NCBI RefSeq assembly: GCF_007971025.1
Contig: NZ_CP042436.1
Coordinates: forward strand, 3,844,001-3,908,000
Length of the DNA: 64,000 nt
Direction: 5' to 3'
Source: Mucilaginibacter ginsenosidivorans
GTDB lineage: Bacteria > Bacteroidota > Bacteroidia > Sphingobacteriales > Sphingobacteriaceae
Positions within the stretch are counted from its first letter, which is position 1. Every line of letters starts with the position of its first letter. The notes beneath the pieces were generated by a model. The model was not told the DNA's origin and made no database searches. It saw only the letters and a list, made by a program, of their open reading frames with translations. Made by a program: the position numbers and the translations under genes. Positions 19,608 through 28,708 of this stretch are shown here, piece by piece.

Positions 19608-19799
19608 TAGTGATTGGTTAATTGGTGATTTGTGATTGGGTGACTTTAGAACTAAAGCGAGGGTCTGAGAGACAGGGACGCCTGTTTTTGAAAACACTAA
19701 GCACAAAAAAGCCCTCGAATTTCTTCGAGAGCTATATTTTACATAATCGGTAACTAATGAACCGGTTAACTAATAACTAATTAACCAATTACTAATCAC
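19608..19799. repeat. inverted word arrays around a terminator
   Basis: The left arm (19608-19644) repeats variants of GTGATTGGTTAATTG. The right arm (19750-19799) carries the same words in opposite orientation (AACTAATTAACC, ACTAATCACT). An 11-bp perfect inverted pair is ATTGGTTAATT (19613-19623) and AATTAACCAAT (19779-19789). The arms flank the terminator between the convergent SDR and pnp genes. They are degenerate low-complexity sequence rather than an insertion sequence. Confidence 0.6.
19710..19740. terminator. bidirectional terminator between SDR and pnp
   Basis: A 10-bp stem, AGCCCTCGAA (19710-19719) with TTCGAGAGCT (19724-19733, one mismatch), has a TTTC loop. An A run precedes it and a T-rich stretch follows, so it can serve both convergent genes. 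Confidence 0.8.
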
Positions 19800-21934: not shown

Positions 21935-22011
21935 CTTGTTTTTGTTGTGATGTGCTTTTCATCTTTTGAGCACACCGATTGTATATATAAATTTTACTTT
22001 TTCAAAAGTAA

Positions 22012-22041
22012 AAAAGCCACCCGACTTTGCGGATGGCTTTT
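22012..22041 (-). terminator. terminator between rpsO and pnp
   Basis: On the minus strand a stem of about 12 bp (AAAAGCCATCCG pairing with CGGGTGGCTTTT) is followed by a T-rich tract. It lies 18 bp after the rpsO stop and would terminate or attenuate transcription into pnp. Confidence 0.8.
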
Positions 22042-22058
22042 ATAGAAAACCTGGAAGT

Positions 22059-22337
22059 TTACTTAATGATATCCCTTAGCTGTAAAGCCTTGATGATAGC
22101 ACGGTATCTCTCAATGTCTTTGTTGTACAGGTAGGCCAGCAATGCGCGGCGTTTACCTACTAATTTTTGCAGCGAAAGCTGGGTCGAAAAATCGTGTTTG
22201 TTCTTTTTCAAATGCCCGGTCAAATGCGCTATACGTGTTGTGAATAATGCGATCTGCCCTTCTGCCGAACCTGTGTCGGTAGCAGCCTTGCCATGTTTTG
22301 CAAAGATCTCTGCCTTTGCTTCTTTACTTAAATACAT
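22059..22337 (-). CDS. rpsO: 30S ribosomal protein S15
   Basis: This 92-residue protein is S15, the 16S rRNA-binding protein of the central domain of the small subunit. It has TGSAEGQIALFTTRI, LTGHLKKNKHDFSTQLSL and LVGKRRALLAYLYNKD, which match the family closely. It lies upstream of pnp, the classic arrangement. Confidence 0.97.
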   Translation of the reverse strand: MYLSKEAKAEIFAKHGKAATDTGSAEGQIALFTTRIAHLTGHLKKNKHDFSTQLSLQKLVGKRRALLAYLYNKDIERYRAIIKALQLRDIIK

Positions 22338-22554
22338 TACCTGAATAATATTAAAGCGTTTATACTTATGTTAATTGAGGTGCAAAGATAGGTTTGTTTT
22401 AGGATAAATACAAGTGATGGGGAGAGAATAGTTGAGTGGGTTGATTGGGTTGGATTAAGTTGAATCAGCTGGGTTAAGTTATATGGTATATTAAGTTGAA
22501 AAAGTTGATGAGGTTATTTATTTTCGGCTATAACTTAACCTTAACTCGAATAAC

Positions 22555-22929
22555 ATGGCATCCTTTACAGAATTAGAAACATGGAAACAGGCCAGGAAAA
22601 TACGCATCAATGCTTCCAGGCTGGCCAAATCTTTTCCACAAGAAGAAAAATTCCGCCTCGGTGATCAACTAGTAAGATGTTCCAGATCAATTGGGAATAA
22701 TATTGCCGAGGGACATGGACGCTTTCACTACCAGGACAATGTTCGGTTTTGCGTTATTGCCAGAGGCTCACTATCCGAAACGCTTGACCAAATGATAATT
22801 GCAAAAGACGAAAATCTGATCACAGACGATGTATTCAATGCTTTCCAGGCAGATTATGACCAGTGTATGAAACTATTGAACGGTTACATTCTATTTATAA
22901 AAAAGAAAAAGAACAACGAATTAGACTAA
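22555..22929 (+). CDS. four-helix-bundle protein (23S rRNA intervening-sequence protein family)
   Basis: This 124-residue protein has the family hallmarks: an N-terminal ELETWKQARKIRI helix, LGDQLVRCSRSIGNNIAEG and a C-terminal tyrosine/lysine-rich helix. Homologues are encoded in intervening sequences of 23S rRNA genes and as free-standing chromosomal genes, and are related to the Avd accessory protein of diversity-generating retroelements. Molecular function is unknown; some members bind nucleic acid. No reverse transcriptase or variable-repeat target is present here. It lies between inverted 19-nt word arrays and has no operon partners. Confidence 0.9.
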   Translation: MASFTELETWKQARKIRINASRLAKSFPQEEKFRLGDQLVRCSRSIGNNIAEGHGRFHYQDNVRFCVIARGSLSETLDQMIIAKDENLITDDVFNAFQADYDQCMKLLNGYILFIKKKKNNELD

Positions 22930-22976
22930 CTCAATGAACTTAATACAACTTAGTCTAACCTATTCAACTCCAATTA

Positions 22977-23055
22977 GGGCGTTTTAACACGCTATGCGCT
23001 CATACGCCTGCAAAGCCTTATGCGCGGTGCCGGTATCCGCTCCTATCGTTAACGC
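22977..23055. repeat. GC-rich GGGCGTT...TTAACGC segment
   Basis: A roughly 80-bp GC-rich block starts GGGCGTTTTAACACGC and ends CCTATCGTTAACGC. Its ends are partly complementary (GCGTT/AACGC). It contrasts sharply with the AT-rich word arrays on both sides. It resembles short intergenic repeats seen in Bacteroidota genomes, from memory only. No ORF is present. Confidence 0.45.
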
Positions 23056-23132
23056 GAAAGATCAACTTAATCCAACCCAATCAACTTAGTCCAACATAAT
23101 CAACTTATTCAACTACAACCTATCTTTGCTCC

Positions 23133-23555
23133 ATGAGCACTCCTTCCACTTACTCCTCCTTCGAAACTGAATTTCGAGTACGGCCGGATGATATCGATAT
23201 GTTTCAGCACGTGCATAACAGCAAGTATTTTGACTATGTGCTGGCTGCCCGGTACGACCAGATGGAGCGATGCTACGGCATGCCGATGGAGAAATTTATG
23301 GAGCGGGGTTTCGGCTGGGTAGTGCGCACCGCTCATGTTGATTACAAGCGCGCCTTAGGCATGGGCGATTACTTCATCGTAAAAACCGCTATCGAAAGCA
23401 TCGACGATAAAGGATGCCGGGTGGTGTTTGCCATCACCAATAAAGCAACAAACAAAATATGCTGCGACGGCTGGTTCGATTATACCATGATCGACATGCA
23501 AACCGGTCGTGCCGCCAAAGTACCGGAGGATATTATTGAGCATTATTTGATTTGA
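23133..23555 (+). CDS. acyl-CoA thioesterase (4HBT hotdog fold)
   Basis: This 140-residue protein is a single hotdog-fold thioesterase of the YbgC/FadM type. It has the motif VRPDDIDMFQHVHNSKYFDYV, in which Asp and His-Asn are near the active site, followed by an RTAHVDYKRALGMGD strand. Such enzymes hydrolyse short- or medium-chain acyl-CoA or aromatic acyl-CoA; the specificity cannot be told. The last 45 bases are repeated in diverged form 154 bp downstream. Confidence 0.88.
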   Translation: MSTPSTYSSFETEFRVRPDDIDMFQHVHNSKYFDYVLAARYDQMERCYGMPMEKFMERGFGWVVRTAHVDYKRALGMGDYFIVKTAIESIDDKGCRVVFAITNKATNKICCDGWFDYTMIDMQTGRAAKVPEDIIEHYLI

Positions 23556-23598
23556 TTTCGAATTTCGAATGTTCAATTTCGAATTTGATTTGCAACGT

Positions 23599-23665
23599 TC
23601 CTCTTTACGGCATGACGCAGAGAGGGTGGTTGAGTGAAACGATGACCGGGTGATTCGATACAACG
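23599..23665 (+). repeat. copy of a ~68-nt dispersed repeat
   Basis: This block (CCTCTTTACGG... GATGACCGGGTGATTCGATACAACG) aligns over its length with 25372-25440 and with the reverse complement of 25291-25330. It holds a short stem (CCTCTTT/AGAGAGG) at its left end. It lies between the thioesterase gene and a duplicated copy of that gene's last 15 codons. Confidence 0.65.
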
Positions 23666-23709
23666 CCGCCAAAGTACCGGAAGATATTATTGCGCTTTAC
23701 CTTATTTGA
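23665..23709 (+). pseudogene. duplicated 3' end of a thioesterase gene
   Basis: These 45 bases encode AAKVPEDIIALYLI and a stop, matching the last 15 codons of the thioesterase at 23511-23555 (AAKVPEDIIEHYLI) with several synonymous and a few amino-acid changes. Homology stops abruptly at the left, where the dispersed repeat begins. It looks like the remains of a tandem paralogue truncated by the repeat, or a tail displaced by its insertion. Confidence 0.7.
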
Positions 23710-23713
23710 TATG

Positions 23714-23790
23714 CAGATATGCGGATCACAGATGTGCAGATGATGAAGACGGACAAATATTTGCACATCTGCACATTTGAAATTTGCACA
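23714..23790. repeat. inverted word array (GCAGAT/ATCTGC)
   Basis: The words TGCAGATATGCGGATCACAG and ATGTGCAGATG (23732-23742) are answered by CATCTGCACAT (23766-23776) and TTTGCACATT. The 11-bp pair is perfectly complementary. No gene lies in the region. It resembles the word arrays at 19.6, 22.4 and 28.6 kb but uses a different word. Confidence 0.55.
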
Positions 23791-23795
23791 TTCAA

Positions 23796-23832
23796 AAGCA
23801 GGATTGCACAACCCGCCCACCCCGTCCTGCTT
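23796..23832 (+). terminator. possible terminator
   Basis: An 8-bp stem, AAGCAGGA (23796-23803) with TCCTGCTT (23825-23832), encloses a 21-nt loop and runs into TTAATTAA. It has A/T flanks but no strong T run, so confidence is moderate. Confidence 0.45.
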
Positions 23833-23955
23833 AATTAACTCTTAACTGACAGTGATCTAATCTGTTAGTTTCTTACTATACATTACGGTAAAGCTGTTTA
23901 AAATGCTACAGCAGTGATGGTTAAAATTTTATTTTTGAGAAAACTCACCCCATCA

Positions 23956-24136
23956 TGTCATTTCGACGAACGTTGGGGCCAGGCGCGTAAGGGTGAGGAG
24001 AAAACTTGTACACTTTGCATCGCGGACTGTTTGTTCGATTAAGATCTCTTCGCTCCCAGATGATGTGCCAATCGCTCGTTTAGGATTTCTCTTTCGCCCC
24101 ACCTCATAAGCCGGCGTTTGCTCTATCGAAATGACA
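23956..24136. repeat. palindromic intergenic element with TGTCATTTCGA ends
   Basis: The 181-bp block is bounded by perfect 11-bp inverted repeats, TGTCATTTCGA (23956-23966) and TCGAAATGACA (24126-24136). Complementarity continues imperfectly for about 50 bp inside. It has no ORF. The form suggests a MITE-like or REP-like element. Confidence 0.65.
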
Positions 24137-28623: not shown

Positions 28624-28708
28624 AGTCCGAAAGTCGGAAAGTCTGAAAGTCCGAAAGAAAATATAAAATAAACTTGCAGACTTCCGGTCTTGCGGACTTT
28701 CCGACTTT
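28624..28708. repeat. inverted word array (GTCCGAAA/TTTCGGAC type)
   Basis: The left arm (28624-28657) is a tandem of near-identical 8-10-nt words (AGTCCGAA, AGTCGGAA, AGTCTGAA). The right arm (28675-28708) has the complementary words; CGGACTTTCCGACTTT at 28693-28708 pairs with 28630-28645 at 15 of 16 positions. The spacer is AT-rich. It lies between divergent ddl and the PASTA gene. Confidence 0.65.

Follow-up and report, generated by a model that had tools for sequence, protein, structure and literature searches.

An S23 gene within inverted word arrays in Mucilaginibacter ginsenosidivorans: a candidate free-standing relative of rRNA intervening sequences

A 64,000-nucleotide stretch of the Mucilaginibacter ginsenosidivorans chromosome (contig NZ_CP042436.1, positions 3,844,001 to 3,908,000; the whole stretch is called the window here) contains a small gene of the S23 family, the family that is also encoded in intervening sequences (IVSs) of 23S ribosomal RNA (rRNA). 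The gene is enclosed by inverted arrays of a short word. We favor the reading that this locus is a transcribed, IVS-like hairpin element and that its S23 protein recognizes the words of its own arms. Two inverted word arrays would form the stem, and the loop would hold the gene for the four-helix-bundle protein. Across the family, the arms repeat a short word, which mostly has 7 nt. The word is linked to the protein lineage independently of the site, and the spacers between arms and gene are not conserved. The genes run in the same direction as the operon genes next to them, hairpins without the gene draw on the same vocabulary, and there are sites free of the element.

The window element and its protein

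The element lies at approximately 3866429–3867118 of the single contig that makes up the 5.35-Mb genome. Its gene (22555–22929 of the window, plus strand) encodes 124 amino acids. A preliminary description of this DNA had named the product a four-helix-bundle protein of the 23S-IVS family. This was borne out by matches to PF05635 (E 3.4e-32) and TIGR02436 (E 2.8e-30) and by the AlphaFold2 model, which is a four-helix bundle (pLDDT 95.8).

The left word array (22429–22516, plus strand) consists of the units GTTGATTGG and GTTGGATTAA and decayed copies of them. Its part 22429–22480 pairs with the outer right array, and 22481–22516 was assigned by eye. The perfect stretch reported earlier was recovered exactly: 22440–22463 (plus strand) and 23062–23085 are complementary at 24/24 nt (100%), at a distance of 598 nt. 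A further arm pair (22482–22506 and 22928–22952) is 72% complementary. The extended arms (22429–22480 and 23064–23115) score 49, compared with 25 for the 99% level of the background from unrelated loci, which confirms that inverted word arrays enclose the gene. The complement of the left array had been placed on the right, and it is found there, but the right side is made of two arrays with an unrelated repeat between them. The inner array (22923–22973, minus strand) reaches into the final codons of the gene; the outer one (23059–23118, minus strand) is the complement of the left array. The intergenic repeat between them (approximately 22974–23058, unstranded) is weakly similar to Flavo-1 of Rfam (20.7 bits, E 0.3, under the cut-off of 42). 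It recurs in five gene-less orthologous gaps (L148, L150, L151, L155, and L171; by eye).

The repeat unit was described as a 19-nt word. The repeat at lag 19 stands (best autocorrelation 0.64), but what repeats is a double unit of 9+10 nt rather than the 7-nt unit of a heptamer, whereas the arms of relatives, taken as a set, have period 7. The 19-nt word GTTGATTGGGTTGGATTAA has two exact copies in the 5.35-Mb genome, both at the window locus. With one or two mismatches it is found at 10 further places, compared with one match for the reversed control pattern. Rfam gave no match at cut-off for the element, and no rRNA match was obtained in 22000–24000 at E up to 1, so the element lies outside an rRNA gene. 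RNA folding, a check proposed in the preliminary description, closed the arms: the modelled 698-nt transcript has a z of −3.46 against 20 shuffles.

The closest structures to the model are 2gsc (Xcc0516; Z 21.1) and 2rld (BT_0352; Z 17.5). Two Avd structures, 4dwl and 8ub7, both reach Z 15.1, the latter being a ribonucleoprotein (RNP) of a diversity-generating retroelement, and the remaining helical bundles score from Z 12.6 downward. We count this common fold, which Avd also has as part of a reverse-transcriptase RNP, in favor of the hairpin element. Residues Q38, R41, S45, E52, G53, G71, and E75 are invariant among 45 sequences. The likeness of PF05635 to Avd is noted in an excerpt of PMC10053308. 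Xcc0516 is a five-membered ring according to excerpts of PMC4990558 and a reference title in PMC10053308, and the same part of PMC4990558 gives the function of the S23 family as not known.

We infer a protein that most likely binds its own arm words, probably in the RNA of the transcript, with one word per subunit of the ring or a similar fixed register. Binding would protect the element or aid its processing or copying, and the element would be mobile. Gene-less hairpins of the same words would be its derivatives or its targets.

Arms and words across the family

S23 genes were found in 60 of 61 Mucilaginibacter genomes and in 116/148 genomes of the phylum. For the survey, the best PF05635 matches were collected in the own genome, in genomes of the genus and of the phylum, and in named genome contigs, which gave 147 unique loci. 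Dropped from this set were L042, on a short contig, L094, at the edge of a contig, and 13 exact duplicates; L195, which has several stops, and L173, a second listing of the window gene, never formed part of it. Internal stops did not lead to exclusion: the genes concerned (L043, L061, L076, L096, and some others) were compared with an X at the stop. The arm score compares the 200 nt upstream with the reverse complement of the 250 nt downstream. Its background was drawn from 8600 between-locus pairs with proteins less than 35% identical, for which the 99% level is 25.

Within loci the arm score has a median of 35, compared with 17 between loci of this kind. Arms over the 99% level were found at 107 of the 147 loci and over the 95% level at 120. 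By group, the loci above 25 are 9/10 in the own genome, 37/45 in the genus, 41/48 in near-relative contigs, 6/14 in distant contigs, and 14/30 in the phylum. The same score was exceeded at only 3/238 control small open reading frames (ORFs) of similar size. Autocorrelation in the upstream arms of the 107 pairs is 0.50, 0.51, and 0.48 at lags 7, 14, and 21 and 0.23–0.36 at the remaining lags between 3 and 24. The upstream arm has a median length of 32 nt. Among the arms with a clear period of 7 (n=70), 42 are arrays of four to less than six units (median 5.4). Approximately five units per arm would fit a five-membered ring, which is weak evidence for the register; a four-unit preference in the heptamers of Xanthomonas and Nostoc is given by Rehm et al. 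(PMC4692102, in part).

Word sharing, scored as a match of the upstream stretches, was counted at pairs whose outer flanks are non-homologous by both DNA and protein. It rises with protein identity: 54/4272 pairs below 35% and 58/3428 at 35–45% (1–2% in either class), 55/1202 at 45–55%, 66/747 at 55–65%, 259/452 at 65–75%, and 67/88 (76%) above 75%. For the DNA-filtered pairs r was 0.28, a value reached in 0 of 500 permutations. The window word is common to 16 of the 20 nearest protein relatives, and under the same criteria none of them sits at a homologous site. The arms behave in the same way. Among loci with arms, where most pairs are within one genus, pairs at least 65% identical have a median arm likeness (score per nt) of 0.78 upstream and 0.88 downstream, compared with 0.32 for pairs below 40%. 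For related and unrelated pairs the spacers are equally unlike, at 0.33 and 0.33 between arm and start and 0.31 and 0.31 between stop and arm. The word is thus not merely flanking DNA carried along with the gene. That related S23 genes tend to share a word suggests that the protein reads it. In the wider locus set the arms vary together with the gene across changing loci, as had been anticipated for a free-standing IVS-like unit, and since the spacers do not follow, the idea of such a unit gains support.

The word arrays were also counted in 80-kb samples of 20 genomes. By a tandem score, there were 0 arrays in the eight genomes with at most one PF05635 match and 14 arrays in the 12 genomes with at least two (Spearman 0.63, p 0.003; 0 to 0.7 arrays per genome after shuffling), in a set that was hand-picked, with kinship uncontrolled and some of the 14 arrays poor by eye. 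A stricter inverted-repeat score gave 0.40 (p 0.08) for periodic arrays and 0.46 (p 0.04) for all. The 80-kb sample of the own genome contained 0 arrays.

Copies of the words away from S23 genes were sought for two words, A and B. Near or exact matches occur in 30/61 (A) and 33/61 (B) genus genomes, some of them without a matching gene found. Across the 61 genomes, solo copies correlate with the gene for word A at p 0.0034 when the gene is at least 70% identical and at p 0.33 at 63% or more. For word B the p value is 0.00035, or 0.029 once the arms of the element itself are discounted. The gene classes were set from identities among the matches listed. We set this correlation aside as support, as the cross controls match it.

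Several points weigh against our reading of the element and of word recognition by its S23 protein. The cross controls just mentioned gave p 0.014 and 0.011, so genome relatedness may explain the correlation, and solo copies of word A are present in 26/57 genomes without a matching gene. Arms do not exceed the 99% background at 40/147 loci. Outside the genus they are found at only 20/44 loci (6/14 and 14/30), so the numbers that link word to lineage rest mainly on one genus. The set of 147 retains near-duplicates (for example L079, L080, and L192), and the arms used for the comparisons of period, unit count, and spacers were picked for complementarity. The control ORFs for arm score and orientation were called mechanically, and some may be spurious. 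A wobble test of RNA against DNA on the sense strand gave 130 compared with 105, which is not a clear excess. In a Pfam scan of the window protein, PF05635 was the sole match, and no catalytic domain was found. The window copy is itself an exception in orientation, as rpsO upstream of it is on the other strand (divergent).

Neighbors, gene-less hairpins, and element-free sites

Both neighbors could be placed, as mechanical ORFs, at 135 of the 147 loci. The S23 gene is co-directional with its upstream neighbor in 127/135 cases (115/191 for controls) and with both neighbors in 109/135 (66/191 for controls). An element whose RNA matters, as that of rRNA IVSs does, would be expected to lie in the sense direction between the genes of an operon.

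The own genome has ten PF05635 matches, nine of them over the Pfam cut-off. By eye, every copy is enclosed by an inverted array of its own, whose word changes from copy to copy; nine of the ten exceed the arm background by score, and a word is shared in one of 45 locus pairs. Three copies lie between sdhA and sdhB, nuoC and nuoD, and pyrR and pyrB (neighbors named from the sequence). Such positions, together with the strong sense orientation, would be expected if the hairpins were intercistronic elements of mRNA processing or stability and the S23 proteins their regulators, kept for an effect on the operon and not as selfish elements. The sdhA–sdhB junction bears on this explanation, which we consider unlikely. 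Of 30 genus loci, three have an S23 gene, two have almost no gap, two have other long gaps, and 23 have short gaps. A hairpin (score at least 24) is kept in 12 of the 23 short gaps, compared with 0 of 115 shuffled gaps, and its word differs between species. The 23 gaps match the S23 arm library with a median best score of 38 (27 for reversed or complemented arms, 22 for shuffled ones), and at least five word types were recognized at the junction by eye. The words, however, differ freely, and sites without the element occur in the genus at the sdhA–sdhB and nuoC–nuoD junctions (L371 and L378; L336, L344, and L349), an outcome that the preliminary description had proposed to look for. At nuoC–nuoD, the S23 gene is present in 3/30 loci, and gaps of 45–49 nt in three genomes resemble element-free sites. 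One complete genome of the genus (G036) has no PF05635 match. The nuoC–nuoD gaps of L326, L327, and L330 carry another family of hairpin repeats (GTCATTGCGAGGAACGAAGCAATC type), without word arrays.

The window element is placed between rpsO (22059–22337, minus strand) on the left and an acyl-CoA thioesterase-like gene (23133–23555) on the right. Of 30 genus stretches, 12 include rpsO (one, L166, was read at its ends only), and the S23 gene is found in this gap in the own genome alone among the 30. In L148 and L151, two other species, the gap has arms of the window word and lacks the S23 gene (arms by eye); several other relatives have other arrays there. Genes without arms and arms at the same locus without the gene had been named beforehand as observations that would speak against the unit. 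Both were made in part, the former at the 40 of 147 loci at or under the 99% background. Arms thus need no resident gene, and the gene usually has arms.

These gene-less arms, as well as the solo words without a matching gene, are what one would see if slippage or another enzyme had spread the arms as ordinary repeats of intergenic DNA, with the S23 gene as a passenger. Heptamer repeats elsewhere are put down to polymerase slippage in parts of PMC4679880 and PMC4692102. We regard this alternative as improbable: comparable arms are so rare at other small ORFs, and the word tracks the protein at unrelated sites while the spacers do not. Other enzymes of the genome offer little help to it. The single RVT_1 match lies at 793909–794253, far from the element, and all seven Y1 transposase matches lie outside it. 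Movement in trans by these enzymes was rejected, as their flanks match the S23 arm library no better than the reversed control does (20–26 vs 20–25; five own-genome loci, four of the seven Y1 genes and the reverse transcriptase, with the reversed control on the upstream side only).

Four own-genome copies of a Y1 transposase (L385–L388) have nearly equal scores. Three of them (L385, L387, and L388) end in short palindromes that do not resemble the S23 words. Arms of another sequence (score 35) belong to one more Y1 gene, L389.

Mobility could also act at the DNA level, with S23 working on cruciform or single-stranded hairpins at replication forks in the manner of repetitive extragenic palindromes and their associated transposases (REP/RAYT), the catalysis being left unassigned. 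Gene-less copies of the same words, similar to miniature inverted-repeat transposable elements, fit this mechanism, as does the fixed polarity of the arms (G exceeds C in the upstream arm in 101 of 107). The absence of a catalytic domain in the Pfam scan argues against it, and the strong sense orientation to neighbors is unexpected for a pure DNA element. rRNA IVSs act at the RNA level. We therefore consider mobility of this kind quite unlikely.

The window has further arrays. An inverted array without a gene lies at 19608–19633 and 19769–19794, with another S23-like word (TAGTGATTGGTTAATTGGTGATT). Another, at 28630–28657 and 28681–28708, has the 8-nt word AAAGTCCG, which reappears in the rpsO gaps of L147 and L155 (by eye). 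Past the thioesterase gene, at 23556–23600 and 23710–23795, there are two more intergenic word arrays (by eye); their words are TTCGAAT, which is shared with the S23 element at nuo in the own genome (L016), and ATGTGCAGAT.

Relation to known repeats and elements

In several bacterial phyla, S23 relatives are often enclosed by word-array hairpins. Of 21 plasmid loci read, 18 of them cyanobacterial, 13 score above the 95% level and eight above the 99% level of a separate background for these loci, which is raised because the lineages share words. The words include AGGGAAC (Nostoc L310), TAGGGAG (Nostoc L321), and AGGGTGT (Calothrix L309). Related proteins on three plasmids (L306, L307, and L308) have words of the GGCAGAA type, which occur only downstream in L307 and only upstream in L308. 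The Azospirillum locus L323 is a classical IVS, since 23S rRNA is matched along its full length, and it has heptad arms (n=1): the arms score 47, and autocorrelation values of 0.66 at lag 7 and 0.77 at lag 14 show period 7 in the upstream one. An Rfam scan of 14 distant and three plasmid loci placed none in rRNA. A phage collection gave no match, and the 31 plasmid records that the Xcc0516 segment matched include none from Xanthomonas.

IVSs of 23S rRNA with an S23 ORF are known in Leptospira and Coxiella (PMC4990558, in part). The window element shares with them the protein family and the complementary arms around the ORF, as the Azospirillum IVS also illustrates. It differs in lying between protein genes and not in rRNA, and its genome has ten PF05635 genes with different words as well as gene-less copies. 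Another trait of 23S rRNA IVSs is excision by RNase III without ligation. Known rRNA IVSs would then be a special case of a wider element. Heptamer repeats are described for cyanobacteria, Xanthomonas, and Beggiatoaceae in parts of PMC4692102 and PMC4679880. In Xanthomonas they often form convergent inverted pairs, with 70 cases in Xanthomonas campestris pv. campestris by the count given in that literature (also in part). They are likewise 7-nt tandem words, mostly intergenic, but the portions concerned describe them without a partner gene family, whereas the words of the present loci are linked to S23 lineages. Neither “23S” nor “intervening” occurs in the main text of PMC4679880, and neither “S23” nor “XCC0516” in that of PMC4692102. 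The P6b stem of the Nostoc trnL intron has the 7-nt repeat classes TDNGATT and NNTGAGT (PMC4476775, in part). It is similar in having complementary heptad arms in a transcribed hairpin and different in that no S23 gene is mentioned in that part of the paper.

In REP/RAYT systems a gene for a Y1 transposase is flanked by inverted repeats, which also occur solo. The window repeats, too, are found alone in intergenic regions, but no Y1 transposase lies between them, and the arms are word arrays. Diversity-generating retroelements, which are also marked by template and variable repeats, have the Avd-like fold in common with the window protein (4DWL and 8UB7, as above); the identity to Avd, however, is approximately 11%, and no reverse transcriptase lies beside the window gene.

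A broader proposal, to which we give only tentative credence, is that S23 proteins, also named intervening-sequence proteins (IVPs), are the partners of bacterial heptamer repeats generally, with a pentameric ring in each lineage reading its own word. rRNA IVSs, cyanobacterial arrays, the GGGAATC pairs of Xanthomonas, and the Nostoc trnL stems would then be one family of mobile RNA hairpins. Heptamer arrays, trnL stems, and rRNA IVSs are described separately, with origin or function left open, in the parts of PMC4679880, PMC4692102, PMC4476775, and PMC4990558 that bear on them. Among the matches listed in the open-access literature, judged by titles and the beginnings of abstracts, no paper joins S23 genes to heptamer arrays.

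On two cyanobacterial plasmids an S23 gene separates cas6 from cas4, and on one plasmid it separates cas10 from a Cmr3-family gene (L304, L313, and L315). The 23S rRNA IVP is named among new associations of CRISPR adaptation modules in part of PMC10910872, and this association may reflect the insertion of such elements.

Heptamer repeats are without an established partner in the portions of PMC4679880 and PMC4692102 concerned, and a link to S23 makes both sides testable; several natural pairs of word and protein become available for comparison. If the reading of these loci as transcribed hairpin elements is true, insertion of an S23 element would be a plain reason for the S23 genes found between cas genes, and rRNA IVSs, instead of being a curiosity of rRNA, would become an instance of a transcribed element of general occurrence.
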